A stretch of DNA of 64,000 nt from Quercus robur (taxonomy: Eukaryota; Streptophyta; Magnoliopsida; Fagales; Fagaceae): positions 2,790,001 through 2,854,000 of the forward strand of contig NC_065536.1 of the NCBI RefSeq assembly GCF_932294415.1, in the 5' to 3' direction. The translations under genes and the position numbers were made by a program. The notes under the pieces were generated by a model. That model ran no database searches. It was not told the DNA's origin and worked only from the letters and a program-made list of their open reading frames with translations. Positions 28,559 through 48,097 of the stretch are shown here, piece after piece. Each line of letters starts with the position of its first letter. Within the stretch, counting starts at the first letter, position 1.

Positions 28559-28567
28559 GTGTAAACT
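28559..28567. repeat. MULE target-site duplication, left copy
   Basis: GTGTAAACT is identical to 45062-45070, immediately outside the opposite terminus. Nine base pairs is the usual Mutator duplication. Confidence 0.95.
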
Positions 28568-28655
28568 GGGATTTTTTAGAAAATAACCTTGAAACCGAAA
28601 CTATTTCATTAGTTAGGAAACGTTTGAAACTAATTTGGAATATAGCAACTCGAGT
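28568..28655 (+). repeat. MULE left terminal inverted repeat
   Basis: It aligns with the reverse complement of 44985-45061. The outer 20 bp differ at two positions. Further in, CATTAGTTAGGAAACGTTTGAAACTA matches CATTAGTTAGCAAACGTTTTAAACTA closely. The overall identity is moderate, roughly three quarters by eye. Confidence 0.85.
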
Positions 28656-28698
28656 TCAGTATCCACGATTTCCTGGGTTTATTAGTTTATTATTGCGA

Positions 28699-28900
28699 GA
28701 AATCGAGTTAAAAGAACTCGACTTCTAAGGCTGGAAAACGAGTCCAAAGGACTCGGTTTTAAAGCATGGAAACCGAGTCCCTTGCACTCGGTTTCAAAGC
28801 CTGGAAACCGAGTCCATTGGACTCGATTTCTACTCTTTGAAACCGAGTTTAACGAACTCGTTTTTCAGGCTTAGGAACCGAGTCCTTTGGACTCGATTTC
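28699..28900. repeat. Left subterminal array of six palindromes
   Basis: Six imperfect palindromes of about 26-28 bp are separated by 8-9 bp linkers, many reading AAAGCNTGG or similar, giving a period near 36 bp. Arms follow AAACCGAGTCC and its complement GGACTCGGTTT; variants replace the inner CC/GG with TT/AA. Where one arm varies the other often varies to match, as in CGAGTTAAA/GAACTCG, so pairing is kept. The array begins about 130 bp inside the terminus and ends at the transposase-side TATA box. Confidence 0.9.
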
Positions 28901-28904
28901 CTTT

Positions 28905-28910
28905 TATAAA
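28905..28910 (+). promoter_or_regulatory. TATA box of the MULE transposase gene
   Basis: TATAAA stands directly after the left palindrome array. A splice donor-like site, CTCAG|GTAATA, is at 29194/29195, and an acceptor, CTATAG|G, ends at 30665, just before the ATG at 30673. This suggests a first non-coding exon of about 250 bp and a 1.5-kb leader intron. Confidence 0.55.
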
Positions 28911-29206
28911 CCAGCATCAGTTCCATCAAACAGCAACACTCCCATCCCACAGCAGCTTTCACGTGGGCATCACAGTTCCCCCCACAGCAGCTTCAGTCCC
29001 CAGCCCTCCATGTGTCTGTGGGTCCCAGCTCCAATAAGTTCTCTCTTGCCGTGGGAATAAGTTCTCTGTATTGTGAATATCAGAAACTCAGTCTCTATAT
29101 GCTCTCTCTTGAACACTCTCTATATTCAGCTCTTTCAACTCACAGTCTCTATATTCAACTCACTCACAGAACACTCATCACACAACATTCTCAGGTAATA
29201 TTTTTA

Positions 29207-29440
29207 CAATGTTGTGATTATTTTGCTAGATTTTTTTTAAAGAAAAATTTAGAACATATTAGGAAAAGTTTTGTTTTTCTTATTTGTTAGTGTAAATATT
29301 GTGATCAATTTATTTGTTAGTATATTGTGATTATTTGCTAGGTTTTTTTTAAAGAAAAATTTAGAACATATTAGGAAATGTTTTGTTTTTCTTATTTGTT
29401 AGTGTAAATAGTGTGATTAATTTATTTGTTAGTATATTGT
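29207..29440. repeat. Tandem duplication of about 113 bp in the transposase leader intron
   Basis: The block beginning TTGTGATTATTTTGCTAG (about 29212) recurs about 113 bp later with few changes, including TTTAGAACATATTAGGAAA and TTATTTGTTAGTGTAAATA. Shorter phrases such as TATTGTGATTATTGGGAATA recur at about 29650-29705 and 30125-30280, so the whole intron has grown by local duplication. Confidence 0.75.
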
Positions 29441-30672
29441 GATTAAATATCTATAATGAGTAGTAATTTAATGATTAATTGTTGGGAATATTTAGTAAAT
29501 AATTGTGATTAAATTACAACATATTGGGGAATTTTTTTTTGGTAGTGTAAATATTTTGATTAAATTACAACATATTGGGGAAATTTTTTTTTTTTTTTTT
29601 GTTAGTGTGAATATTGTGATTAAATTATTTGCTAAGTTTTTTTTTAAGAAAGTTAATATTCTGATTATTGGGAATATTTAGTACCAAATATTGTGATTAT
29701 TATGTGAAAATTTGAGTACTAGATATGCAATTTTTTCCTTTTTATTTTTTATTTTTTCATTTAAGAGAATATATAAAACTTTTTTGGCTAAAGGTTCGAA
29801 GCTCAAAATCTTATAAATCCAATTATTTTTTATTTTTTTTAAGGAAGTTGCAACAGTAAAATTGTAACATGAAATGGTCATGACCATGACCATGAATGAA
29901 TGTGTAAGGATGGTGCAGCACGAGCACGTATATTTTGTGAAAAATTTACAAATATTTGGTGTTGTTACCATTTGTAACATTCCAAGTTAGGAAAAAAGGA
30001 GCAGACTTTAAAAATAGAAAGAGAGCAAACGCTGTCCATTTCCATAGCCCTTTAGGATTTTAGGGGATTAGATATTGGCAAAAAGAATGGAGTCATTAGG
30101 GATTTTTTTAGAAAATAACTACAAATATTGTGATTATTGGGAATATTTAGTACCAAATATTGTGATTATTATGTTATTACAACATATGGGAATATTTGTT
30201 TTGTTTGTTAGTGTAAATATTGTGATTAATTATTGGGAATATTTAGTACTAAATATTGTGATCAATTGATAGGAATATTTAGTACTTTTAGGTCTTTCTC
30301 ATGGATATATCATAACATTATGAGTTTGATACCTAAGATAGTAGTCTTTTTATCATAAATTATTTCAAGATATATTTGTTTAAGATTTGTAACAGAGATT
30401 TCAATGGATAACTGGTTGGTATATAATATTTTTGTTCATCATAACTTATTTGAATGGGTTTTGAAAGTCATGCCCCTAGAATGATTTAGAATTTTTAAAG
30501 AATATGAAATTGGTAATGACTATTTTTGTAAGATTACTAAAAGTGAGTATATGCAAATTTGGTTGAGGTTAGTATTGTTGGCATTTCATACGCAAAGTTT
30601 TGTGATTGATGTTGATTGAGCGTTATAAATTTGTCACTAACACAATTGCACTTGATGATCTATAGGTTGACA

Positions 30673-33444
30673 ATGATCTATATAAATATATACTACGGTG
30701 GACCCCTTAGCAATGCCAACCCTTATGATGGAGCCTCATTTCAAGGTCCGGGTATCCAGTGCTACTATATGATGATACGCCGTAAGCTAAAGACCCTGAA
30801 TGAGCTGAAAGTAAAAATTATGGAAGAGTTGCAAGTGAACCCTGCTTTGCATGACATACATATTACTTTCCGTTCTCCATATGAAGTCCTCAATCAATGC
30901 ATTAATTACAGATATATGGCGATAACAGAGGACAAACATGTGAAATTCATGTTTAGTAAGATGGACAAATGGAAACAAGCAGCAGATTTTGAGTTATACG
31001 TCACTTTGGAGCCTCGTGCAGAAGTCGGCGTAGAGGACGAAATTGTACAAACAACTACATCTCTACAGTTTGCAGTCCTAGATGATCAATGCACCACATT
31101 GGGAGGCTATACACCCCCTTTTCAAGAGACACCAGTAACAATTGAGAGTGAACCTGGAAATAGATATGAAGATCAATTTTGTACACATCGAGGTGAATCC
31201 TCTACAGTTCCAGTAGTTGAAGATGAAGATGAAGATGAAGACGAAGACTGTTCTAGGGAAGATGGTGAGGATAGAGATGAGTATGAAGAGAGGATTGACG
31301 ATGGTGACTTTGACAGGGGTCTTGATGACCATGAAATTACTCACATTCCTCATGTTGATGATATGGCTGAATGTGATGAAGATGATGAGGACGCTAATGA
31401 TAGAGTTCAGCATGTTACAAATACGACCCTCGTTTATGAACCTCCTGCCTCATCATTTTATGAAAATACTTGGGAAAATATGGTTGATCCTGAAGTTGTT
31501 CAGCAATCATTTGGTTCTTGGAATGCAGACATGAATTTTGCGAAAGGGTTGATTTTTGCTAATAAAGATGCAGTGAGACGTGCATTAACAATTTACGCCG
31601 CAAAGCATAACAGAAACTTTGTGACTAGTAGGTCGACCACAAGTAGACTGTCTGTGAAATGCAGCGATGAATCATGCATGTGGTACGTTGGGGCAGTTGT
31701 GAAGCCTGAACTCGGACTATGGATGGTCACATCTTATAGGGGTCCTCATAGTTGTATGCCCCTTGCCACGGCCCTTGATGGTAGAATGATGGATTGTAAT
31801 TTTCTAGCAGAAGAATTTGTTCCATTGTTGAAAGAGAAACACACAGCAACAATTTATCACCTCAGACATTTCATTAAAGGGAAGTATTATGGGCATATTC
31901 TTTCTTACTATAAGATATGGGATGCGAAACAACGAGGTATTGCAAAGATATTTGGGGATTGGGAAGAGTCTTACGAAAGGTTGAAAAAGTTATTGTTTGC
32001 ATACTGGGATCAAGAACCTGGCACCCGTTTCTGGTTTCACACCATACCCAGGGACGAGTTCGGTGATACAATATTGCGCTATATATTTTGGGCTTTCGCT
32101 CCATGCATTGCAGGATTCAGACATTGTAAGCCAGTGATCAGTATTGATGGGACCCATTTGTATGGTAAATATCGAGGGGTGTTGTTGATTGCAATGGCCA
32201 CCGATGCCAACAACAAGGTTTTGCCTCTTGCCTTTGCCGTTGTGGACAAAGAGTCAGGGTCTAGTTGGGGGTGGTTTTTAGAACGCCTCAGGAATGCACT
32301 GGGGGATGTGATAGCAGATAAGGACATCTGTATAATTTCTGACCGACATAAGGGTATTCAAAGTGCAATTGCAAACTGGCCTAGACATGATGATGGACGA
32401 CAACGAGTAGTTCACAGATATTGCCTTCGACATGTTGCTAGCAACTTCAACACGCATTTTCAGGACGCCACTTTAAAGTCATTAGCCTTGAAAGCGGGGT
32501 ATGCTACTAAGGAATCAAAATTTGAGCTGTACATGCAACCTATCAAGGAAGCTGAGATCGAGGCCCTTAGGAAGAAACGGAGAACCGAGCGGCAGGAAAG
32601 TGAACCCGACTCATCCATCATGCCATACACATATCTAATGAATGAGGATCTAGACAAGTGGACCCAACTACATGATGGTGGATACCGTTATGGGGCTATG
32701 ACAACCAATGTCTCGGAGTGCTTCAATGGAGTACTCAAAGGTGCCCGTGGCCTACCCATTGCTGCAATGGTTGAATTCACTCATTGCAAACTTGTTGCGT
32801 ATTTCCATGATCGACACAAAGAAATTACTCATGAGCTCTCAAAGGACAAGGTATGGACTAAATATGCCTTAAAAATCTATGGACACAACCTACAAAAATC
32901 AATTTCACACCAAATAAATCCGTTTAATAATCAGAATGGTATATATCAAGTAATTACTTCATACAACATCTATAGCTCTGGAGGGGGACACCATAGTTAT
33001 GAAGTAAATGTAAAGGCCAGAACATGTGGTTGTGGAAAGTGGCAAATTAGAAAGATCCCTTGTTCACATGCAATTAAAGCTCTTCAGTACTTGGGGCAAG
33101 ATGCGACTGCATATATTGACCCATGTTATAGTTTGGTGAACGCCATTCACACCTACTCACATGCATTTGTGGTGCCAAAGTCAGATTCATTGTGGAGGGA
33201 TGTGGATGGTCCAAAGTGGGTGCCTGACCCAAAACTGTTGCGGGGCAAAGGTCGACCTGTGGCGTCTAGGATACGAAATGAGATGGATGGGGTCCGGCGA
33301 GAACCGGGAAGCCGGAGGCCAGATTCTGACTTGAGGGAGATTCAGCAAAAGCAGAGCTGTGGACTGTGTCATCAACATGGGCATAACCGTAGAAGATGTC
33401 CGCTTTCCCGTGGGGCTTCGACAAGCAGTAATAATCCAAACTAG
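30673..33444 (+). CDS. MULE transposase (MURA type)
   Basis: One uninterrupted frame of 923 residues from this ATG; an in-frame ATG at 30655 would lie in the predicted intron. Counting from 30616 (the frame's upstream limit), the N-terminus is a PB1-like domain (about 22-135: YYGGPL...YVTLEPRAEV). It is followed by an acidic region (about 202-260) and a MuDR N-terminal plug and DNA-binding part (about 300-420). The catalytic MULE domain shows D511 (SIDGTHLYG), D576 (IISDRHKG) and E701 (NVSECFN), the DDE triad, with C603/H606 in RYCLRH. A SWIM zinc finger follows (C804, C806, C816, H818) and a CCHC knuckle ends the protein (C915, C918, H923, C928). All key residues are present, so it may be active. 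It cuts at the element's ends in the nucleus. GTAAGT directly after the stop and an acceptor at about 33558 suggest a 3' UTR intron. Confidence 0.95.
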   Translation: MIYINIYYGGPLSNANPYDGASFQGPGIQCYYMMIRRKLKTLNELKVKIMEELQVNPALHDIHITFRSPYEVLNQCINYRYMAITEDKHVKFMFSKMDKWKQAADFELYVTLEPRAEVGVEDEIVQTTTSLQFAVLDDQCTTLGGYTPPFQETPVTIESEPGNRYEDQFCTHRGESSTVPVVEDEDEDEDEDCSREDGEDRDEYEERIDDGDFDRGLDDHEITHIPHVDDMAECDEDDEDANDRVQHVTNTTLVYEPPASSFYENTWENMVDPEVVQQSFGSWNADMNFAKGLIFANKDAVRRALTIYAAKHNRNFVTSRSTTSRLSVKCSDESCMWYVGAVVKPELGLWMVTSYRGPHSCMPLATALDGRMMDCNFLAEEFVPLLKEKHTATIYHLRHFIKGKYYGHILSYYKIWDAKQRGIAKIFGDWEESYERLKKLLFAYWDQEPGTRFWFHTIPRDEFGDTILRYIFWAFAPCIAGFRHCKPVISIDGTHLYGKYRGVLLIAMATDANNKVLPLAFAVVDKESGSSWGWFLERLRNALGDVIADKDICIISDRHKGIQSAIANWPRHDDGRQRVVHRYCLRHVASNFNTHFQDATLKSLALKAGYATKESKFELYMQPIKEAEIEALRKKRRTERQESEPDSSIMPYTYLMNEDLDKWTQLHDGGYRYGAMTTNVSECFNGVLKGARGLPIAAMVEFTHCKLVAYFHDRHKEITHELSKDKVWTKYALKIYGHNLQKSISHQINPFNNQNGIYQVITSYNIYSSGGGHHSYEVNVKARTCGCGKWQIRKIPCSHAIKALQYLGQDATAYIDPCYSLVNAIHTYSHAFVVPKSDSLWRDVDGPKWVPDPKLLRGKGRPVASRIRNEMDGVRREPGSRRPDSDLREIQQKQSCGLCHQHGHNRRRCPLSRGASTSSNNPN

Positions 33445-35276
33445 GTAAGTGATGCTTTTATATAAAATGCCATGATTGTATCAATTAGCCAAGTTGCATA
33501 GATTAGTACGTATGTTTTGGGTTTTGGTATCTAACAACAATATTTGAATTTTTGCTAGGCATGCAAATACTCGAGTTTGGAATGGCATTGTAGATGTCAA
33601 TTGGGGTTCTCTTTATTATGTATTTGAACTTACTACTGGGTTGTATCCACACAATTATTATTTTGTTTGTCACTGAATGAACTTGTAATCGAAGTATTTT
33701 ATATCTAATGTACCTGTTTCTAGATTGTGATATTATGACTGTTTAATTTTGTCTTTCAATTTTAAATCCCCACAATTTTGTAGTTTATATTGCTTACTAC
33801 TCACTAGTTTAATTGTGATGATTGAATTAACTTACTGAAATGAACTTTAAACAGTACATATATATCCAGGCCAGGAACAAATTTTGTCAGAGTGATGTGT
33901 GACTTGGACGGTTAAGGTTGTTTTTAAGGTTGTTTTTTTCCTCCTATTATAGTTAATTATAGAAGACCAAAAAGAGAAATGGCAAGAGAGCTCCACGTAA
34001 ATGCAATAGCCTCATTATTTAGGTAAAAAAATAAAAATAAAAATTTATTTTATTTTTTAGGGGAGAATATTACTTGTAAGGGTTCTTTTGTTCCCAAAAA
34101 AAAAAACATAAAAAGCCTTTATTGAACCCAATGTTCACAATTCGTAACTATGATTTTTCCTGAATGCTATAGACACATGCACATCCTTCCCTTCCCCTTC
34201 AAGCAGTAATATATATTGTCAATCCACCATCAGCCCTTTAATTATTCGTGCTTTGAGCATTGATGCTACAACTTCCAATTGAAGCTTGGTCAGTACCATC
34301 AGTGCAATCATGCTCATTCATCAAAAAACAACCAAAAAGAGAGAAACAATAAACACCCCAAGGAAACACTTATTTCTAACGACACTCGTAGGAAATTTCC
34401 CACCTCAACATCCATGCAAACCCGACTATGCATTTATCTAGTGAACAGATTATTGTCTATCAAATATATCAATTACAACCTCCCATTTGTCTGATTTTTT
34501 TTCCCCATTTTAAACATTGGTTATTTTATAAGGAAAAAATAAATTCTAACAATTTGTGATTGATAGAAGCATCAATGGAACAGAAAAGGTGAAATAGATG
34601 ACTTTTATTTTAAATTGAACAATGGACAATTAGCTATGAGTGTTCTATTCCATATCTTTATTTTAAATTTGTTCTGGTATTGATGAAACATTCACAATAT
34701 CACAACAAGTTTATTGTAGGAAATACAAAGTTGGAGAGGAAATAAGTGTACAGATAACACATAAAAAACAAGTTTAACGATATTGAATTGGAGAGGAAAC
34801 CCATATAGATAACACATTGGCTACTGCGAAAAACTGATTCTAACAGATACAGGGAAGTACCGACTGAGGGCCATGACATCAAGTAAAACTTGATAAAACT
34901 CTGTTTAAGTTTAAATGCAAGCTCCTGCCTGAAGACTAAAATCCTCATACAATTTTCATTAGCATGATGCATGAAGGCAAATATTAAATTAACAGTGACC
35001 TTCTTAAGGTTTGCATTCATTGATTAATGGGAATTAGTGATTAATGGGAATACTATATTACGTATATGGGTTTTTAATACTAAGGAAAGAAATTCCACTA
35101 GTGCATAGAAACCTAACAATTGGTTCACAGGATTCACATTTCAATGTAATTTGGAGACTTAGAGGAAGTGCTCTAAAAGGGCAAGGCCAATATTATCTAT
35201 TAAATTACAATAGATACCCGTATACAGACAAAAGTGTGATGATTTTTTTACAAATGTTAAATTCAAGAGTAATTAC
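33445..35276. other. MULE interior between transposase and captured exons
   Basis: It contains the predicted 3' UTR intron of the transposase (33445-33558) and probable polyadenylation region. After that comes AT-rich DNA with no recognised gene. The left arm of a 115-bp inverted repeat lies at 34619-34734. Confidence 0.5.
34619..34734. repeat. Left arm of 115-bp inverted repeat (partner 36387-36504)
   Basis: Almost perfect reverse complement of 36387-36504, with only a few mismatches, for example in the CACAATATCACAAC / CACAAACTCACAAG segment. The two arms bracket the AGT2 exons. The right arm overlaps the last codons (DNGQLAMS) of the unnamed captured fragment, so this arm is probably an inverted duplicate made during or after capture. 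Confidence 0.85.
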
Positions 35277-36127
35277 TTTCATGTGTTTGCTGAAGAGCTC
35301 TCAAACGCTTGAGCAAGTGAGAACCAACATCAGCGCAATGAGCTTGACGCTTCTCCTGGTCAATAACTCTCAGCACTGCTAGCCCCCCAGCCGAACATAC
35401 AGGGTTTCCTCCAAAAGTATTAAATTGAATTTTCTGGGCCAATACACTCGCAATCTCTGGGGTTGTCACAACTGCTCCCAATGGTAAACCATTGCCAATA
35501 CCCTGATAGATATTAATTGTGAGATTCAATGGAATGGTTGCATAAGATTATAAAACAAAAACTGATTAACTGAAATTGTAAGTTATTTAAAGAAAAAAGC
35601 TATTGACACTTGCAACACTAACATGATTTACATGTCTTCCTAAAATAGATTATGGGTAATGACCTTTGCCATAGTAAATATATCAGGAATGACGCCCTGT
35701 GATTCAAAGCCCCAGTAATTGCTTCCTGTTCGACCAAAGCCAGTTTGCACTTCATCTACAATGCAGACACCACCAGCCTTGCGTACAATGTCATAAACCA
35801 GTTTCAAGTATCCAGGCGCCAATTCAACTGCTCCTCCAGCTCCCTACAGTAAGTGAAAAGTACAACCAATTAGAAAATTTTCAGTGTCCTTAAATAGGTG
35901 GTTGTAACACCAACAATTTCAGACCTTACTATAGATGCCAAAAAAGAAAAAAATGAAGAAAAAAGAAAAGAAAAGAAGATAACCTGAATTGTTTCAGCTA
36001 TAAATCCTGCAACTTTTCCTGAAGTACCAAAATCAATGTGATCTTGCAAATCTTTGGCATAACGATTGGCATCGGAACCAAAAACTCCATGGTATGGATC
36101 TGGATTTACAACATGATGAATTTCACC
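35277..36127 (-). pseudogene. AGT2: Captured fragment of alanine:glyoxylate aminotransferase 2 (three exons)
   Basis: Three exons with canonical splice sites lie at 36127-35985, 35843-35664 and 35502-35277. They encode [16 protein letters not shown], then [18 protein letters not shown]...[14 protein letters not shown], then [16 protein letters not shown]...[14 protein letters not shown]. This is the middle of the class-III PLP aminotransferase AGXT2/AGT2, a mitochondrial or peroxisomal glyoxylate aminotransferase. The PLP lysine (FTMAK|GIGNG) sits at the exon 2/3 junction, and the frame is open across all three exons. The N-terminal exons and those after LQQTHE are missing. It is a partial copy carried inside the MULE, with introns, so it was captured as DNA. 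It could add exons to a transcript but not make the enzyme. Confidence 0.88.
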
Positions 36128-36386
36128 CTGCAAAATGTTGCAGTAATTTTGAGCAGATAGATCAGAATATTTATTATATTTTGACAAATGTCTTTTACAC
36201 ACATGTACATGATGAATTTCACATACTAAGTTTCACTGTGACAGTGATAATTACAATAGTTATAACTATAGACTCGCAAACAACAGAGCTTCAGTGAGTT
36301 TTTCTACATGTTTGTGGTCAATGTGCAAAAGAATTGGGAAAAGACATTTCCATTATTACTCTCAGCAAGTGTTTGATAACAAGAGA

Positions 36387-36504
36387 TTACCAACTTTGTA
36401 TTTCCTACAATAAACTTCTTGTGAGTTTGTGAATGTTTCATCAATACCAGAACAAATTTAAAATAAAGATATGGAATAGAACACTCATAGCTAATTGTCC
36501 ATTG
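36387..36504. repeat. Right arm of 115-bp inverted repeat
   Basis: Partner of 34619-34734, about 1.65 kb away in opposite orientation. Confidence 0.85.
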
Positions 36505-37109
36505 TCTGATGATGCACAGCCAATGAACTCCTTCACACGCTCTTGAAAAGGTGTATAATTAACTAATAGACGATCCAAAACGATAAAAGTAGATTCCACC
36601 ACCTGTGTCATGGACTCGTGTTGCAGCGGATTCATTGATTCAAGACGGGTAAGAAGCTGATTTTGAACATGCAACACTGTCTGCTCAAGCACATCCACGT
36701 TTAAAGTTGTTACGCTACCTTTTAGCAAAGCAGGAGGACTCTTGGGGATTGACAATTCACTCGAAGACTGAGCGTCACGACAAGATATTTGTGATGACGT
36801 CTCATCAAATTCAACAATTGAAGGACTATGATGCAGGTCAGCAGAGCCTTCACAATTAGACACATCTTTATCTCGAGGAACAAATATGGAATCAAAATTA
36901 GGGAAAACACCTGCCAAAAATATGAATCAGAGTCACAACCAAAGATGAAAGAGGGAAAAAAAACCAAACAAATGGAATGTAATCTGTATTTACCACAAGA
37001 GAGAGGCCGAGGTGGAAGAACTAATAAACATCGAGGAGGAGGGAAAGCAAGCCGGCCCAACCAACCCAGAATATGAAGTCCTAAAACTTGACTTATACAA
37101 TCTGTCACT
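36441..37109 (-). pseudogene. Captured two-exon fragment, protein not recognised
   Basis: Exon 37109-36994 encodes CISQVLGLHILGWLGRLAFP...PRPLSC. An intron with good borders (GTAAAT...TTTTGGCAG) leads into a second exon from about 36911 encoding VFPNFDSIFVPRDKD and SPSIVEFDETSSQIS, and continuing through VESTFIVLDRLLVNYTPFQERVKEFIGCASS. The open frame runs to the stop at 36441. The composition looks like a real, soluble host protein, but I do not recognise the family. Same strand as the AGT2, INO80 and PMD pieces around it, so it is probably another captured gene fragment. Confidence 0.5.
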
Positions 37110-37824
37110 GGAAGAAAAAATATATATATTAACAGATAACTGATAAGGGCAAGCAGCAAGTTAGCAAGAACAAAGCAAGAGAAACATAAACTATAAAGAG
37201 CTCAAGTTCCTTATTCTCATAAACTAAAGCAGAGAATGAAGCTGGAGCGTGCATTCTCATCACATTGGAAGAGTCAAAATATCCCTTGGGTGGCTATGGT
37301 GCCCACCAAAATTTGAATTCCCATTTACAACACACACACACGCACATATATAGAGGCCTGCCAAAGGCTGGGATTCGAAAAAATTGAATTGCCCACCCCT
37401 CTCCCCCCCCATTCCCCCACAAAAAAATATTTGAGCTCACCAAATGACCTCCTAGAAAAAAATATTAGCCTGCTGGCCTAACTCAAAAAAAATACAGAAC
37501 AATCTGCCCTTATCAACAAAAAAGAATCATTAATTTTAATTTTTTAATTTTTTTTGTACATGTGTCATGTCTATAGCCAAACACATAAAGCAAGTGCAAA
37601 TGCATGAAGTATTCACTTATTTTATTAAAAATAAATAAATAAATAAATAAAGAAGAAGAAGAAGAAGCAAAGCAACTTTCCTCACTTTTAAAGCTATAAG
37701 AGAAACCTAAGAATTGAGTATTTAGTAAGGTTGGCATTTTCATGACAGTGAACCTTAATGTTTTGGTAGTATATATAACAAACAAAAACATTAATGTAAG
37801 GCAGAAAAAGCTTTAAGAACGTAC

Positions 37825-39412
37825 CTTGTATGTTATAGGATTGTGACCTCCTGCATAGTGCACGTCCTCCAACTCCCCAAAGGGAGGGGGCAGAAGAGAA
37901 TTTGGGATCTCCCCAAAGTGGAGGTAGAAGAGATCATGATCTAAAAAGAAACTGAGAATTATTGTAGTTATTTTAAATAGCATACATATATGTTAAGGAT
38001 GGTACGTGGCAGCAAGTAGACAAAAAAACTTTATTGCTCACTCTCACAATGAGAATACTGAAAAAGGCAAACTCACCAATCTGTTAAGCTGGTGCTCGTT
38101 CAAAGTACCCCCGTGCTCTGCATGGTTCTCGATTCTGATAGAATGCAGTAAAAGATCATTGATAGGAAAATATTATAATTCTGTAGACTGCAGGCTACAC
38201 TCACCGAAAAGATGAACCAACCAAAGAAAAAATGCTTACCCTTTTGAAAACCACTCATTAAATTGTTCATGGCTGTCAAATAAGGTTGGCATAATAAAAT
38301 GCAAAAGGGCCCACAGCTCTGCCATATTATTCTGGATAGGTGTACCAGTCAGCAGCAATCGGTTCCGACAATTGAAGCTAAGCAGTGTCTTCCATCTTAT
38401 ACTGCCGAGTCAAATATCCAATGAATTAATGATGAGACTATAAAGGATTAGAAACATAAACTATTCACCAGAAAGATGATTCATGAAACTTTAGGAGGGC
38501 TGTAATGGCTAAAACTGAATTCTTATGTGATACTGTAGACATGTCGATACTGCAATACTAAAAAGATACAATTTATCTGGATGACGTTTTATATTGAATC
38601 TTAATTTCTCTTAACAAAATAATTCTAATAATAATATCAACATCAACAAGAATGATGATGATAAAAAAAGCACATTGAAATAAAAAGAACAGAATGGATA
38701 TGAAATGAAAACTAAAGTAACAACAGGTATCAATTTATTAAAAGAAATAAAAGCAGAGTTCAAAAAAGGAAAGGAAAGATCAGATGGATGAGAAAACTTG
38801 TTCTTTATGTGACTACATATTTAATAAACGAATGCTGAATAAATAAATGATTTCAGTAGATTCTTGGGTTTGTTTCAATTTTTTTATGGTACTACTCTAG
38901 ATGTCAGGCTTTGATGCGATGGCAAGTGCCTTCAACCAAAATTGACAAGTTGCAAGATCGAATCTAGAAGTTAGTCTCCAAAAAGAAAATTTTGGAGGTA
39001 AGATTGCCTGCCAATCACCTCTCCCAAACCCGCAAAAGTGGGAGTCTTGTGCATTAGGTATGACGCCCTTTTTTTTTTATAGGTACTAGGTATGACCCTT
39101 TTTTTTAATGGTATTACTCTCTTCCCACTATATGTCCATTTTATTACATACACACAAAATAAGATAACTCCCCACGGTTGACTCTTTAGTGGGACGCAAG
39201 AAATAAAATGATAGCAACAAAGACCAAAGAATAAAAACATCTCAAAAGAATAAAGCCACTACAACCACAAAGAAATAAGTTAGAACCTGTTCGAACTTTT
39301 GATTGCCTGGGCTTCATCTAACACCATGTATTGCCATTTCACACGCCGAAAGTACTTCTCATCAGACACTAACAGCTGTTAGCTGGTAATGAGAATGTGA
39401 AATCCAGCTTCC
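37825..39412 (-). pseudogene. INO80: Captured fragment of INO80 chromatin-remodelling ATPase (four exons)
   Basis: Exons with canonical junctions lie at 39412-39287 (EAGFHILITS, then [23 protein letters not shown]), 38401-38240 ([20 protein letters not shown], then [20 protein letters not shown]), 38134-38077 (IENHAEHGGTLNEHQLNRL) and 37940-37825 (FGEIPNSLLPPPFGELEDVH). The first two hold the DEAQ box (motif II) and the LTGTP motif III of the SNF2 ATPase, in the nuclear INO80 complex. A stop codon replaces the tyrosine expected after LITS, and exons encoding the HAILKPFMLRR region between the third and fourth pieces are absent. The Walker A and C-terminal helicase lobes are not present, so it cannot be a working ATPase. 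It is a MULE-captured piece, interrupted by a SINE at 38899-39107. Confidence 0.88.
38899..39107 (+). mobile_element. tRNA-derived SINE, Au-like
   Basis: The flanks ATGGTACTACTCT (38886-38898) and ATGGTATTACTCT (39108-39120) are a 13-bp target duplication with one mismatch. The body has an A-box-like GGCAAGTGCC, a B-box-like GATCGAATC and the Au-family 3' sequence 'CCAATCACCTCTCCCAAACC' through 'GGGAGTCTTGTGCA', then a T-rich tail. It lies in an intron of the captured INO80 piece. Confidence 0.8.
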
Positions 39413-39919
39413 CTGGCAAGAGAAAGAAGCTCATATAAAATAAAAATTAAAAAAACGATATAATGCACTTCTTTATAGTTTATGTTTCAATTATGGTTAG
39501 CCACCAAATTAGTGGCAACAAGACCCTAGAGCATCAGCAAGATAACCCGAAAATGCAGGTTGATGGTTTTAAGAATGGAAATACAAAGATAAATGTATGC
39601 ATGGCACTAACCACTCTTGTTAGTTTTGTTGTTTTAAACACTTTCCAACAGTTTTTTTTATTACCCAAACCCAAATTCTGTTTAATTTTTTAAAACTGTT
39701 TTTGAACTATTTCTTTATCGAACACATTTTTTATTTAAAAAATAATAGGAATCAGTTTTGTATTCTCCTTCTCAAAAACAGTTTTCTGTTCCAATCAGGC
39801 CCTTAGTTTCCACATCCAAAGAAATTTATTTCATGTTGTCATCTTTGCAATACCTATTTTCTCAATGTATGCACTTTACCACATATATTTCTTGACATGA
39901 TAAAACGTAAAACAATGAC

Positions 39920-39982
39920 CTTGCGTAAGAAGCGATTAGCCACCAGCTCAACACACATAACCTTTCTTCCTTCCCCATGATC
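39920..39982 (-). pseudogene. Captured exon of a TruA-like tRNA pseudouridine synthase
   Basis: A 63-bp segment bounded by an acceptor (TTCTAG|GATC) and a donor (CAAG|GTCATT) encodes DHGEGRKVMCVELVANRFLR plus K. The VMCVELVANRFLRK core matches the conserved strand and helix of TruA-family pseudouridine synthases (pattern ...ELVGNRFLRKMVR...). Only this exon is present. It lies between the PMD gene and the INO80 exons, on the same strand. Confidence 0.6.
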
Positions 39983-40470
39983 CTAGAAAAATACAGAGAA
40001 ACATGAATATCCAAAAATTGGTGTTGCAGCATACATAAGGACAACACAATCACGTCCGAGCAGCAAATAAAAATGGTTTGGACATGCTTGCACATTACAA
40101 AATCAACACAGTCCTACAATTGCGAAAGAGGGAGTCAATACTTGGAATTGAGAATATGAAGTAATCAACAACAATAAGTGATGGGCAATCGTAAATTTAA
40201 CAGTACATACCACTAAGATTATACTAATAAATGATTATCTAAACATATGATTAGAGGTGGAGCTAAAAATTAATAAGACTTATATTATACATCAATCATA
40301 ACATATGACCTCCGTGGTTGTCAAACGATATATAAAAAACATAAATAAAAATCCTATTAATGAGTCACAATTTGAAGAATATCAAGGTTAAAATTTTATT
40401 TTCTATGTCTAACAATGTGTTTAAAATTATGGATTTATTTCCAATAGAGAGAATCGGTCAAGGAAGAGAC

Positions 40471-42380
40471 TTACTTAATAGACAATGGAGAAGGTGCAAA
40501 TGGTGGGCCATATGCACCATCTGGTGGGAGGTCCATCCTTGGGCACAAAAAAGGGAATCTGACCCATGCCCAATACTGAACTAGCAACAAGGCCCCACCA
40601 ATCTGACTAGCACCTCTGTCGGTTGCCTTGCATAACTCTCTGTACAGCCATGCAAGGCAAGCGCTCCCCCAACTGTACTGAGGTGGATTCCGAAGGTTCC
40701 TCAGCATCTGCAACCACATCGTATGCACCCTATCACCAGACTTGTCGGCGAAAATTGTGTCTGCCAGGAGTGCTAGGATATAACATCGTGCATATTGATG
40801 CACAACCACCTCTGTTGCATCATCGGGCAACCCTTCGTCAATTTTTTCTAGTAGCTTCTTTATTTGGATCCTTTGTCCTTTAAGCGTGGTGTCATTAGTA
40901 GCAATTCCAAGCAGACTCTGACATTCATCTTTCCATGTCAAGTCAGTTGTTCCAACAATTGCCTCACCATCGATTGGAATCCCAAAAAGAACCTCCACAT
41001 CTTGTAATGTGATCGTTGTCTCACCATGTGGCAGGTGGAAGGTGTGGGTTTCAGGCCGCCATCGCTCAACGAAGGCCGTGATCAGGTTATGATCAATCTC
41101 TCTACCTGGGGTCCTATACAGCCCCTCTAATCCAACTCTCTTCACAATGTCGACGATACGATCATCCACCACTATCCGGCGTCGTTTTCGGAACTCGTCA
41201 TTACGACCGCGGCATTTCAGTGGCCCTGGATCCTGCACATGATAGAATTATGGTGATGAGATGCAATATGCCATAACCTTTGTATATATGATTGTAGTTA
41301 TTGATCCCAAAAAACAAAAATAAAGCAATTATGAAGGGACCTTAAAATATCAACCCCAAAAAGAAAAAAAAAAAACCAAAAAAAAAAGCAACAACGGGAG
41401 AAAAATAAAAGGATGCAATGCACTTTATACATTTGTCTAGTAATGAAAGGCTTCCCATGCGACCAGCCTATTGCTGCCTCTAAACCAGGAAAAGTCAAAA
41501 GGCTTCTTAAAGCTATTTCATTAATTTAAGAAGCTTTAAGTAACTATCTTGGAATTTGGTTGTATTTCGTTGTCATAGTTGCTGGTTTTTTTTGTTTTCC
41601 CTTAAGCTCTGTTGTTGTCCAACCCTTGAATTTACTTAACTAAGTATTTTAATGCAAGTAAGAAACTCAAGTGAAAAGGGTCCTTAAGGATTTTATTTGA
41701 TTTATGACAAAAGCTTGTCTTCAATATGATTCATTAAGCTAGGTTTGTTAGACAAGTTGTAATTCCAAATGGATTCCTAAATATAAACTTCTATGTTTTG
41801 CTTTTGGAACCTAAGGATCATATTTTATGCATGTACCATTGCTTCCAATCTCAAGCACATTTTTTTAAAAAAAATTTAGCTCTGTTTGACATGATATGGA
41901 AAATAAACAACCTAAATAGAGGAAAGTAAAAGAAACTAGAGGCAAAGGCTAGCGTTCTCAATAATAACAATAAAAATTACTGCAACAACCACAACCTGAA
42001 CAACTTCTTGCCAAGCAACAATAAAATTATCACAGGTCACATTGCTTCAAACAAAAATAACTCTTATGAACCTAGGATTGCTTTGTTCATGTACACCCAC
42101 ACTAACAGTCAACCAATCTAACTTAACCCAACTAATGCGCATGACCATGCATTGAAAGCTAGTAATACCATTGACACTTAGAATTTCAAAAATGGGAAGA
42201 AAAAAAAATCAACATAATGTAAAAGGATAAGAAGAGAATATTCAGCAGGTGGTCGGTTTTCATTTTTACCTTGCCTTCCCAAACAGCGCACGCTCGATGT
42301 GTTTTTATAAACCTTAACACTGAATCGTCAGTGGGCTCAGGACCAAACTCATCAGGGAGCTGAGCAGGAACAGCAGCCAT
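40471..42380 (-). CDS. Plant mobile domain (PMD, aminotransferase-like) protein, MULE-borne
   Basis: Two exons: 42380-42270 (MAAVPAQLPDEFGPEPTDDS to AVWEGK) and 41232-40471 (DPGPLKCRGR onward), joined in frame by GT/AG borders. Together they give 290 residues. The PMD signature is clear: GLEGLYRTPGREIDHNLITAF, then THTFHLPHGETTITLQDVEV, then LFGIPIDG, and a later SWGSACLAWLYRELCKA. PMD proteins occur as nuclear host factors (MAIN, MAIL1) and as genes of mobile elements. The stop overlaps a strong donor (ATTAA|GTAAGT), so the original gene probably ran into a further exon now missing, leaving a protein shorter than usual PMD proteins. It is read from the right end toward the transposase, the position of mudrB in MuDR. 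Its function in transposition is unknown. Confidence 0.85.
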
Positions 42381-44619
42381 ACTGCACGAAGTTTAGGGAG
42401 TCAAGAGTAATATAATCACATGTTAAATTGGCAAGGAAAGTGATGAACAAGAAAATGATTCAGTTTATTTTGACAACAAGCAGATGGTCCTCTTTACTCA
42501 TAAAATTAATTTGGGCTACAATGAAGTTTTACAAAAGGTGACAAAAAGAATGAAGGAAAATCATATCCGCGTTGATTAATTTGGGCTACCCACATAGTTG
42601 GCCTTACTATTTTCCCTCCTACCAAATGGACCCTACAGTTACGTGCTACATAAAAGATCTGAAAAAATTAAAAAGGGGGGAGGAGTTTGTGGGGTGGGTT
42701 CTTAAAAGACTTTCTAAAATTGATTGTCTGAACTCACAACAAAACATCCAAACCAGGGTACAATGGTGAACAAAGCCTTTACCCTACCACCCCAACACAA
42801 GTAGGTACGAAAAATCTCATTTCTACACTTCATCCTACCAAACATAATGTAAGAAATCATAAAATCATTTCAACATTGCAGCATTGCCTGTGTAGATTCA
42901 TGTGAAAACTATGCAGAAGAAGTGAAGAACCAGATGTTAAAAATAAGACAATATAATGCAAAATTTAAATACCAGGACAAAAAATAAATAAATAAATAAA
43001 TAAAAAATCTTCAATAACAGCAATGTATAGTAAAGCAGATGAACAAAGGTAACAAAGCAAACATGGCAGCCAAGATTTGAAATGCAGCAACATAGTAGAA
43101 TCATTACCTGCAATATCACTATGCAACTACCTTCTCTAAAAGCTTATGTTGTGAAGCCTTTTCAAGCCTATTCCTGCAAGGTATAAAATGCAATTAGCAC
43201 CTCAAATACGTATATATATGGATGAACATCATTTCTATGCTTATATAAAGAAGGAAGAAAGGAAAATAAATTTCTAGACAGACATTTTAATATATATGAT
43301 GAATTTCATATTGTAATATTTAGGAGAGCCTTTTTTTTATAAGAATAATTTTATTGAAAAAAAGACTACATACAAAAAGCACAAAGCAGCCAAAACAATT
43401 ACACGAAAAAAAAAAAAAATTATGTTCAATAAGAAAGAGACTATAAATGCAGGAATGGCGTCACTAGTTGTGAAACAAAGACCATAAAACCAAAAGACCA
43501 TAAAACAATATAAAAAAAGGAATAAGACATTTAATGAAAGTTAAAGCATCATGATATAAGTGGAACTGCCAAAAATGAAGAAATATGCTGATTTGAGAAC
43601 TAAAACGATTAATTGGAAAGAGGAGCATTAATGGCAAAGTCCATTTACACTTGTATGAGCAGTTAATAACGTAATTTTTTAATTTCCAAATGATGAGAAA
43701 TCTATCAATAGATTCTTTACATATGTACATATGTATAAAGAAAATCCCTGCCCTCTCGTTCAATGCCTAACAGAAAACCAAGATTAAAGAGATGTTTTTA
43801 TTCAGGCCTTTTCAATGCCTCCTATATTTCTACAAATACGTTAGACCCAGTTAGATGCTAGTCATGACAAGAAAAAACTATCAGAGCAATTTATTTGCTA
43901 GGAAGGAACATATATCGTGATTATGGCAACTTCACACAAGATGGTGAAGAGTTAAAAGTTCATTGAAAAGGCCACATGATAAAAACCCTAGGTTCAAACA
44001 GCAATTCAATAAATAAGAAATCATGTCATCCCAGCAATCAATGCTACCTATTTACTGGTAAGCATAACTTGTGCATTCAAATCACAGAAATAATAAACAT
44101 TTTATAAAAATAAAAATCCAAAAACCCATTAATAACTCAATTCACATTACACCCAAAAAATAAAAAAAATAAAAGAACATATAAGCAAAAATCATACAAT
44201 GATATAAAAACCCAAAAAGAAGAGATCAAATGAGAATGATACCCTGCGGTTTGTTGGGACGGCGACGGCGACGGAGACGCTGACGGCGAAGGCGACGTTT
44301 CTATGACGGCGACGGCGACGGAAAGTGAGAGACCGAAGCGAGATGGAGGGCCGACGGCGACGGACAAGGACGGAGCTGAAGAGAGGGAATGAATGCGACG
44401 GAACGGCGACGGAGCTGAAGAGGACTGAGAGTGAGAGAGAGAGAGAGAGACTGAGTTTTTTGAGTGATGCACTGTGAGTGTGGGAGGGAATGAGAGTTTT
44501 TTGAACTAAAGATTTTTTTTTGAGAGAGTACTGTAAAGTGTGGGAGGACTGAGTTTTTTTGAGACTGTTTTGAATGAGAGTTTTTTTGAGAGTTTTGTTG
44601 AGAGAGGCAAAAGAAAATA
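42381..44619. other. Presumed leader/promoter side of the PMD gene inside the MULE
   Basis: No further coding exon is recognised. A block at about 43330-43440 has a T-tract followed by TATAAGAATAATTTTATTG and could be a short LINE 3' end on the minus strand. A GC-rich, CGG/CGA-repetitive tract (44250-44420) followed by (GAGA)n lies near the right palindrome array. The serine- and proline-rich frames it yields look like repeat translation, not proteins. Confidence 0.45.
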
Positions 44620-44982
44620 GAAATCAAGTCCAACGGACTTGATTTCTGTGTAGAAAAACCGCTAGTCGGTTTTTATACATACAAACCGAGTCTAATAGAC
44701 TCGTTTTCTACACACAGAAATCGAGTCCAATGGACTCGATTTCTATGTGTAAAAACCGAGTGTATTGGACTCGGTTTGTATGCATGGAAATCGAGTTTAT
44801 TTAACTCGATTTCTATGTGTAAAAACCAAGTGTATTGGACTCGGTTTGTATGCATAGAAATCGAGTTTATTTAACTCGATTTCTGTACGCCCATTTCCCA
44901 CGTCGTTCACTGCAAAAAAGGAAAATCGAGTATACTAAACTCGATTTTACAACCCACAAATCGACTCCAATAAACTCGAATT
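44620..44982. repeat. Right subterminal array of about ten palindromes
   Basis: Same palindrome family and period as the left array, with about ten units. One is a short form (ACCGCTAGTCGGT near 44658-44671). Two adjacent 70-bp blocks (about 44744-44813 and 44814-44883) are nearly identical, showing recent growth by tandem duplication. A spacer of about 37 bp before the ninth unit is longer than the rest. The array ends about 80 bp from the right terminus. Confidence 0.9.
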
Positions 44983-44984
44983 GT

Positions 44985-45061
44985 TAGAAAGCAAAATAGT
45001 TTAAAACGTTTGCTAACTAATGATATTGTTTAGATTTTATAGTTATTTTCTAAAAAAATCC
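44985..45061 (-). repeat. MULE right terminal inverted repeat
   Basis: Partner of 28568-28655 in inverted orientation. Its outer edge abuts the GTGTAAACT duplication. Confidence 0.85.
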
Positions 45062-45070
45062 GTGTAAACT
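45062..45070. repeat. MULE target-site duplication, right copy
   Basis: GTGTAAACT directly follows the right terminus and matches 28559-28567 exactly. Confidence 0.95.
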
Positions 45071-45264: not shown

Positions 45265-48097
45265 ATGGCTCGTGCTTTACTTTCTGCTATTGTGGAGCAG
45301 CTTGGTCCTTTCATTTCTTCAGAGTTCACCTTGACTGCAACTGTTAAACAAGAAGTCCAAAAGCTTGAAACCAAATTCTGTACCATCCAGGCAGTGCTCA
45401 ACGATGCTGAGAAGAGGCAGCTGAAGGAGGAAGCTGTGAAGCTTTGGTTAGATAAGCTCAAACGCGTATCCTACGAGATGGACGACGTGTTGGATGAGTG
45501 GAACACTGCCATGATCAAAGAAGAGATTGAGAAACAACAAAAAGTCGAAGAAAAAGCCGAAACTAGCACTGCTAAGAAGAGGAAGGTATTGCCCAACTTC
45601 AATTTCTCAGTTCCTAATTTTTTTCAGAATCGTGATATTGCTCATAAGATAAAAGAACTGAACGAAAAATTAGATGAGATTAACAAAGAGAGGGAGGTGT
45701 ACGGGTTTGAATTAAGTAAGGCCATTGAAGAAGTGGTTGAGAGACCAAAAACTACTTCTTATGTTGATGTGTCTGATATTCTTGGTCGCGAGAAGGTTAA
45801 GGATGATCTAGTGAGCATCCTATTGGGTGAGGGTACTGAAAAACAAAAACGTCCCCATGTCATCTCTTTGGTGGGTATGGGCGGTATGGGAAAAACGACT
45901 CTTGCCCAACTAGCCTTTAATCATCATGAGGTGAAAGATCATTTTGAAAAATGAATTTGGGTTTGTGTTTCCGAACCCTTTGATCAATGTAGGGTTGCCA
46001 AAGCTATCGTTGAAGCTTTGGGAGTTCATGATTCCAACACTACTGAATTGCAAAGTCTGCTAGATACAATTTGTGAATTAATTCGGGGAAAGAAGATTTT
46101 TCTTATCTTTGATGATGTGTGGACTGAAGACCATGCAATGTGGAAGCCATTCAGAGATGCACTCAAAAATTGTGGTTCCCAAAGTAGTAGAATCCTAGTC
46201 ACCACACGTAAAGACAAAGTTGCGAAGATGATGGAAAGTGCAAATACGATCAAGTTAGAGGAATTGTCTGAGGAAGATTGTTGGTTGGTGTTTAGTAAAA
46301 TAGCATTTGTAGATGAGGATCCTAAGCAATGTGAGCAATTAGAAGACGTTGGCAAGAAAATATCAAAGAAGTGCAAAGGCTTGCCCCTTGCTACAAAGAC
46401 TCTAGGGAGTCTCATGCACTTCAAGAAAAGTAGAGAAGAGTGGAACAACGTTTTGGATAGCAATTTTTGGGAATTAGAAGACATTGAAAGAGGACTTTTT
46501 GCGCCGTTGTTACTTAGTTATTATGATTTGCCATCACCATTGAAACGGTGTTTCTCATATTGTGCTGTCTTTCCGAAAGATCATGTCTTTGAAGTTGATA
46601 TGTTGGTATCTATGTGGACAGCACACGGATTTGTTGAGTCAAAGGGAAATATGGAGGTGGAAATCATGGCAAGAGAATACTTTAAAAGTTTAGTCATTCG
46701 CTCTTTCTTCCAAGGGGAACATATTTTCTGACATGAGGTATAAAATGCATGATATAGTGCATGACTTTGCACAATCAATTACTAAGAATGAATGCTTTAT
46801 AATCAATAGTGACATAGAGTCAAAATTAGACTTTAATAGTGCTCGCCATTTGGGATTAGAAATTCGAAATGTATCCCAATTTCCTTTGTCCATCGATAGT
46901 GCCAAAAATCTACGCACCCTTATCATTTTTAATCAACTTGGTTATGACATACCCAATTTACAGAATTTTAGACTTTTACGAGTATTAACTTTGATAAATA
47001 CTATGGAACTTCCACACACAGTGGAAAATTTAATACATTTAAGGTATCTCAATTTGTTTGGGGGTATTGAGGTATTGTCTGAAACCATTTGTAATTTATG
47101 CAATTTACAATATTTGAAGATTACCAAGGATTTTGGTTCTGTCTCCACAAAATTACCTCAAGGGATAGGTAAATTAATTAACTTAAGACATCTTATTGGA
47201 GAAGATTTTCTGATTCCAAGAGGGATTGGAAGATTGATTTCTCTTAGAACATTAAAATGTTTCAGCATAAGTGACGAGGATAGCGAAGGATGTAAACTCG
47301 GAGAATTAAAAAATTTGAACCACCTGCAAGGGAGTTTTGGAATACGTGGGTTGGGGAACGTGGTAGATGTAAGTGAGGTCGAGAATGCACAACTTAAGAA
47401 GAAGATACAACTTCGTGAAATGATACTATCTTTTAAGAAAGGGAAGGATAGAGGATGGTGGGATGATCCGGTTCCGAATGCGGTCGACCCCAATGGTAGA
47501 AGAATGGAGAGGGATGTCTTAGTTTTAAATGCCTTAGAGCCACCTCAAGACTTGGAGCAGTTAGACATTCGTTGGTATCAGGGCACCACAATGTGTCCTA
47601 ATTGGTTGATGTCCTTGACCAAATTGAAACTTGTTTCTATCTTTTCGGCCACAAAGTTAATGAGTTTGCCTCCTTTGGGGAAGTTTCCGTTCCTTGAATC
47701 ATTAACTATAAGGAATGTGTGTAGTTTGAAACAAGTGGGTGTTGAATTTTTGGGAATAGAATCTGAAAACAAGAAAGAAGACATAAAAATATTCCCAAAT
47801 TTGAAATATCTCAGGTTTGTGTGGTTGGAGGAGTTGGAAGAATGGATTGGGATTGGAGGAAAAGAAGACGCAGACTGCATTACTGTAATGCCTCGTCTTC
47901 AACGGTTGGAAATTCATGGCTGCGGAAAGTTAAAGTCACTGCCGGACTTCCTGCGTACAATTCCATTGAATAAATTGGAGATCGCTGGCTGTCCAATTAT
48001 CAAGGAACGTTGCCAAAGAGAGACAGGAGAGGACTGGCGCACCATTTCTCACATCCCAATCATCGATCTTCAAGAACATTCTTATTATTTAAGGTAA
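45265..48097 (+). pseudogene. CC-NB-ARC-LRR (NLR) disease-resistance gene, disrupted
   Basis: Homologous to RGA-type intracellular immune receptors. From the ATG at 45265 come an Rx-type coiled coil with YEMDDVLDEW (residues 70-79) and the P-loop GMGGMGKTT (204-212). The same frame later holds FLIFDDVW (kinase 2), SRILVTTR (RNBS-B), CKGLPLATKTLG (GLPL) and CFSYCAVFPKDH (RNBS-D). The MHD motif KMHDIVHDFAQ (about 46743) and leucine-rich repeats to 48097 are in a different frame. Two lesions are visible: TGA at 45952-45954, between HFEK and IWVCVSEPFDQ where Arg is usual, and a +1 frameshift near 46720-46735. All main motifs survive, so decay looks recent. The coding start is 203 bp beyond the MULE's right end, so the insertion separated it from most of its upstream region. 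Confidence 0.92.

Follow-up and report, generated by a model that had tools for sequence, protein, structure and literature searches.

Mutator-like elements (MULEs) that carry a plant mobile domain (PMD) were reportedly treated by Babu et al. 2006, a paper cited by Ikeda et al. 2017. In several grasses and Amborella, PMD-C members are fused to MULE transposases (Ikeda et al. 2017, PMC5418596). The same source reports that MAIL1 and MAIN silence transposons, raises the question of whether transposon-coded PMD proteins serve the transposon, and offers an anti-silencing role of the MULE PMDs as its authors' speculation; the counter-silencing idea is repeated in PMC8616336. In the VANDAL elements, VANC counters silencing, and its targets are short motifs, densely set in the non-coding DNA of these elements, to which VANC proteins bind (PMC5735166). 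Here we describe a MULE in a 64,000-nucleotide stretch of Quercus robur DNA (contig NC_065536.1, positions 2,790,001 to 2,854,000, forward strand; the window), whose relatives pair the transposase with a separate PMD gene read towards it from the opposite end. The pair is a property of the element lineage, present in the window family as well as in a subfamily whose transposases are 62-64% identical to it. The window element is a deletion derivative of this large two-gene family: it has kept the transposase and the ends, and not the whole PMD gene.

Convergent pairing of transposase and PMD

The borders and genes of the window element are listed here.

28568-45061, plus strand: whole MULE, 16,494 bp, an internally deleted family member
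28559-28567, no strand: left target-site duplication GTGTAAACT, read at the junction
45062-45070, no strand: right target-site duplication GTGTAAACT, read at the junction, a perfect 9-bp copy of the left one
28568-28671, plus strand: outer part of the left terminal inverted repeat, from inverted-repeat comparison and genome matches to 28568-28697
44958-45061, minus strand: outer part of the right terminal inverted repeat, from inverted-repeat comparison and genome matches
30616-33444, plus strand: MULE transposase frame of 942 codons, from the open reading frame and Pfam; first in-frame ATG at 30655
42270-42380, minus strand: PMD exon 1, 111 nt from the ATG, from sibling comparison; a similar exon lies in subfamily loci L030, L032 and L040
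40475-41232, minus strand: PMD exon 2, 758 nt, from Pfam PMD and sibling comparison
40095-40113, minus strand: PMD exon 3 remnant, with the deletion junction near 40105; the frame ends TVLIL-stop

We profiled the transposase-PMD pairing across the source genome (785.7 Mb, 42 contigs). A first transposase search gave 50 matches at 48 loci (best of 1671 candidates), and a second, with a query from a 63%-identical subfamily, gave 56 matches at 50 loci (best of 1706 candidates); their union is 84 loci. The PMD search supplied the best 149 of 1612 candidates. Among the matches listed, at least 71 of the 84 loci have a PMD exon within the 45-kb pairing window (at least 41/48 and 43/50 in the single searches). 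All 71 pairs are convergent and none is arranged otherwise, with the two genes on opposite strands and gaps of 0.6-37 kb. When the 84 loci were placed at random 1000 times (contig C6 was assigned the leftover length, a rough step), convergent pairs averaged 0.34 and never exceeded 3. As a control we took the best 150 of 1249 Pfam MULE-domain candidates, none of them among the 84 loci: a single one had a PMD within 45 kb, among the 191 PMD rows listed for it, in a set that is impure because top-scoring domains may include FAR1-type host genes. That one convergent match, at C40:14.40 Mb, was considered as a further PMD-MULE lineage and dropped, as 400 of its residues look FAR1-related by eye.

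The first-pass annotation, made from the sequence alone, had described two genes read inward from opposite ends, and this is the regular plan of the lineage. Chance capture of a PMD in one copy is rejected, given the pairing seen among the matches listed. Seen from the PMD side, rows with a transposase among the matches listed number 25/27 at 89% identity or more, 3/15 at 80-88%, 1/8 at 69-79%, 37/55 at 65-68% and 5/44 below 65%; the low-identity bands cannot be judged for pairing, as transposase partners were counted only among the matches listed.

The outermost letters of the window element are GGGATTTTTTAG... at the left and ...CTAAAAAAATCC at the right, and the ends are 77% complementary over the outer 100 nt. 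For comparison with the genome, we scored the best 40 of 533 candidate matches to the right end and the best 40 of 248 to the left end (28568-28697). MULE target-site duplications are usually about 9 bp long, with a range of 8-11. A transposase domain, a duplication of about 9 bp and terminal inverted repeats common to the copies place the element among the MULEs. The matching ends and perfect duplication that had been proposed were confirmed: GTGTAAACT stands at both borders, and a 9- or 10-bp target duplication was present in all 11 elements with both junctions read (the window and ten others). In a twelfth, more diverged copy (C5:40843300-40851300), a target duplication was searched for and none was found. 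The borders of the proposed 16.5-kb MULE also stood; its size does not hold as a family figure, since it is that of a deleted copy. Six larger siblings with both ends known measure 22,488, 22,657, 23,439, 24,557, 26,382 and 26,867 bp.

Gene 1 points into the element from its left side and codes for the transposase, with Pfam matches to MULE (PF10551; 3.8e-17), SWIM (7.7e-09) and DBD_Tnp_Mut (3.3e-07). Its frame is free of stops, as the annotation had noted; the first in-frame ATG is codon 14, so the true start is unsettled. We located the motifs SIDGTHL, ISDRHKG and NVSECFNG, which we take to be compatible with the proposed D-D-E triad, and a CX2CX4HX4C knuckle. By the role of its family, the protein would bind the ends and cut and join. 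A stop is absent from 12 of the 16 full-length transposase rows that reach 94% identity or more.

Gene 2 points inward from the other side, and the only Pfam family that it matches is PMD (6.2e-52 for the minus-strand frame 40471-41238, covering only positions 5-194 of the 347-position profile). A profile search for a solved PMD structure gave no match up to an E-value of 1. Intact siblings have a five-exon PMD gene of 723 aa and the full domain (positions 5-194 plus 239-346). The window copy lacks 4.0 to 8.3 kb at 40098-40106 relative to them, a stretch that in sibling C35m37 (C35:37006112-37032493) holds most of exon 3 and exons 4-5, and its frame stops five codons into exon 3 (TVLIL, stop). 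The suspected absence of a last exon was thus correct, and the suggestion that this copy might depend on others is supported: because its own PMD gene is cut, the product would have to come from siblings. The 723-aa frame is open in four of the eight five-exon siblings read (C35m37, C3m59, C41m and C35p40).

Conservation and decay of the family

Selection was analyzed in eleven transposase-PMD pairs, the window and ten from distant subfamilies; two transposases and one PMD stretch in this set hold one stop. Between groups, the ratio of nonsynonymous to synonymous substitution rates (dN/dS) was 0.16-0.32 for PMD exon 2 and 0.34-0.49 for the transposase, with a Fisher p of 7e-16 for C3_39 versus C4_70; the within-group values have very few changes behind them. 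By these ratios, purifying selection acts on both genes when subfamilies are compared. The gene distances of transposase and PMD correlate (Mantel r 0.98, 0/20000 permutations as high), also without the window copy (r 0.97, 3/20000).

The exon plan extends beyond the window family. Among four longer distant loci, exon 2 is present in all four, exon 1 in three (L030, L032, L040) and exon 4 in three (L030, L032, L044). In blastn comparisons, the C35 sibling resembles two distant loci almost only in exons 2 and 4; among the distant loci themselves the resemblance extends into the introns. A tree built on 27 PMD stretches, all from this one genome, grouped the MULE PMDs together (support 82/72), beside repeats of the C39_50.9, C5_71.9 and C3_19.4 type. 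Well apart from them stood the full-length single-exon PMD frames, probably host genes, that are clustered at C37:13204498-13419556. The tree has an arbitrary midpoint root and long branches that meet, so we take from it only the separation from the C37 cluster.

Where the window element aligns with its siblings in long blocks, identity is mostly about 99%, and 91-98% in some non-coding blocks. Together with the target duplications, this speaks for the mobility of the family. Several copies have lost genes. The element at C2:74248242-74258940, the sole PMD-less transposase locus read, is a deletion derivative in which the PMD is gone and the transposase remains. In those at C2:82670558-82681805 and C35:10038290-10050074, by contrast, PMD exons are still present and the transposase is incomplete. 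A 1,003-bp member (C3:50813150-50814152) has both ends and a target duplication and no gene. The family therefore decays into one-gene and no-gene derivatives, and short members without genes are probably common in it. MuDR likewise decays into deletion derivatives. In the diverged copy at C5:40843300-40851300, the N-terminal part of a transposase is joined to a PMD gene 86% identical to that of a sibling, and the remaining transposase is gone. Its PMD is one of the stop-free rows at 80-88% identity.

Between its two genes, the window element carries captured pieces.

34619-36505, minus strand: class-III aminotransferase fragment block, with Pfam-matched frames at 35263-35843, edged by 116-nt inverted arms
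36507-36930, minus strand: fragment found in other family copies too, with a 97% match at C2:64562689 and 73-75% at nearby loci

The second fragment is a probable host gene piece, and its matches around C2:64562689 are probably a host gene cluster. The stretch 34755-36505 occurs at 96-97% identity also at C6:20572505 and C6:20594104. Copies C2:46.40, C41:18.99, C4:29.29 and C5:88.72 match 36507-36930 alone, so the aminotransferase block was either added later or lost in these four. The 116-nt arms could suit a nested transposon (34619-36505), but a scan for an 8-11 bp duplication at their ends gave just one 9-bp match, off the arm ends. Sibling C35m37 carries glutamate synthase fragments between its genes.

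Two further observations concern the element's edges. A 26-nt stretch at 30100-30125, inside the element and upstream of the transposase, is 96% like the right terminus and is possibly an old or alternative end. About 200 bp past the right end begins a plus-strand frame (45265-45954) that looks by eye like a coiled-coil nucleotide-binding-site (NBS) resistance gene.

What the PMD gene may do for the element

We interpret the family as a two-gene MULE lineage in which the PMD would be kept as a trans-acting aid, most likely an anti-silencing one, with the window copy as a deletion derivative; our confidence in this whole reading is evenly balanced. The PMD would owe its retention to a benefit for the spread of the element, most likely an effect in trans against host silencing, and copies without one gene could still move while siblings supply the missing product. 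We favor anti-silencing since MAIN and MAIL1, to which the PMD is related, belong to a host silencing pathway. Broken PMD copies alongside lineage-wide retention fit a product that is shared among copies in trans; they also make any one copy a poor guide.

Several results weigh against this reading. Four of the eight five-exon siblings (C35p10, C39p, C2p82 and C2m17) have a broken PMD and the window element a truncated one, so an element can do without its own PMD in cis. Among the matches listed (149 of 1612), 13 of the 84 transposase loci have no PMD, although some PMDs may be missed. The annotation had held that other family copies without a PMD would point to chance capture; such copies are partly borne out by these loci, and the one read is the deletion derivative on C2 that lost its PMD. 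At 20 of the best 40 right ends (of 533 candidates), neither gene is listed among the matches on the inner side, with the PMD sought within 12 kb and the transposase within 40 kb. A stop is present in 12 of the 15 PMD rows at 80-88% identity and 3/15 have a listed transposase; two of these rows give a dN/dS of 0.54 (p 0.052), and in the single copy of this kind that was read, most of the transposase is missing. The C3_39 transposase is nearer to the C1/C2 set (0.87 versus 0.83), and its PMD is nearer to the C38/C4 set (0.86 versus 0.81-0.82). This mixed grouping, at loci C3:39713098 and C3:39728383 (L043, L044), suggests that gene modules may have been exchanged between subfamilies, so that the pair would not be strictly inherited as a unit.

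Both ends of the element carry dense arrays of a short motif.

28700-28899, no strand: left subterminal array of 8 ACTCGRTTT/AAAYCGAGT sites, from a motif scan, many at alternating 16/19 spacing
44683-44947, no strand: right subterminal array of 12 ACTCGRTTT/AAAYCGAGT sites, from a motif scan

On either strand, ACTCGRTTT occurs at 20 sites in the window, all within the two arrays. The sites form palindromic pairs that alternate between 16 and 19 bp over much of the arrays, with a 35-bp period. The motif was picked after the arrays were seen, and by our estimate 64 kb should hold about one match by chance, so the finding is the density and not the absence elsewhere. All ten copies read retain the right arrays, and three of them also have sites outside the element (3 in C39p, 1 in C35m37 and 7 in C2p74); the motif is thus not strictly private to the element. 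The array sites could be binding sites for the transposase, for the PMD or for neither.

The main rival to anti-silencing in trans is a mudrB-like helper role, in which the PMD would be a direct transposition partner that aids re-insertion or assembly of the end complex and takes no part in silencing escape. The PMD is conserved along with the transposase and holds the same convergent position as mudrB, and the subterminal palindromes could serve as a common binding site. However, single-gene MULEs are mobile without a PMD. Host PMD proteins are linked to silencing and gene expression (PMC5418596, PMC8616336). We regard this role as a tentative possibility.

The PMD might instead act as a decoy subunit that interferes with the host MAIN/MAIL1/PP7L complex without binding element DNA. 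Host PMDs act in a complex (PMC8616336), and the one-genome tree puts the element's PMD on the side of C37_46, C5_9.7 and C2_96, presumed host genes, and away from the single-exon cluster; as that tree has long branches and a midpoint root, a decoy seems doubtful to us. We consider it highly improbable that the PMD was captured a single time and has since travelled as passive cargo, in the manner of the aminotransferase and glutamate synthase fragments. MULEs do capture genes, this family holds such fragments, and several PMD copies are broken, but the PMD keeps its exon plan, has low dN/dS between subfamilies and is paired at 71 of 84 loci among the matches listed; the captured fragments are incomplete genes, and four other family copies lack the aminotransferase block. 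Although both repeats are abundant (1612 PMD and 1671 transposase candidates at first look), a chance neighbourhood is rejected by the strict convergence (71 to 0 among the matches listed), the random placement and the MULE-domain control, and by borders that are common to the copies and target-duplicated.

Anti-silencing in trans also has a bolder form. The lineage may have taken a relative of a host silencing regulator as a permanent second gene and used it against the host pathway, with recognition via the palindrome arrays of 35-bp period, as an independently evolved counterpart of VANC; we think this rather unlikely. In the tea plant, phased small RNAs are reported to arise from PMD genes, with 175 PHAS loci (PMC10673657). 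Such RNAs are possibly a host answer to PMD-bearing transposons.

Comparison with known transposon systems

Maize MuDR resembles this family in its two convergent inward genes, 9-bp duplications and deletion derivatives, and a second gene convergent with the transposase is found here too. The second gene of MuDR is mudrB, whereas here it is a PMD gene that is not known to be related to mudrB and resembles it by position alone. MuDR is also about one fifth as large as the larger siblings.

Other MULEs also carry added genes, among them VANDALs with VANC and the KIU/Kaonashi elements (PMC5735166, PMC13317346). Dense motifs are common to VANDALs, where VANC uses those in non-coding DNA, and to the present family. 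However, VANDALs are described as MULEs without terminal inverted repeats and carry VANA, VANB and VANC, whereas this family has such repeats, a PMD gene and palindromic motif pairs in terminal arrays. Pack-MULEs (PMC13317346) likewise carry host gene fragments, without a transposase; here fragments are present, the transposase is coded, and the PMD of intact siblings is a conserved gene and not a fragment. PMDs are also found in Ty3/gypsy elements (PMC9289625), which are retrotransposons and transpose by another route.

This one genome offers two-gene, PMD-less and transposase-broken natural copies together with selection on both genes, a set suited to the question of whether a transposon-coded PMD serves its transposon. 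An amplified transposon family here carries a second gene akin to the plant's own transposon-silencing regulators.

The closest described elements are the PMD-carrying MULEs of rice, several grasses and Amborella (PMC5418596), which likewise hold a transposase and a PMD in one element and prompted the same anti-silencing idea. Their PMD is described as a transposase fusion, whereas here the genes lie on opposite strands and the PMD, a gene of its own with five exons that converges on the transposase, has been retained across subfamilies. We found no description of such a separate convergent PMD gene in a MULE in the excerpts of the literature searched. PMD-carrying MULEs are themselves known, as fusions; a separate, convergent and long-kept PMD gene looks new, and argues that the PMD of a MULE can be a long-kept gene and not just a recent capture.

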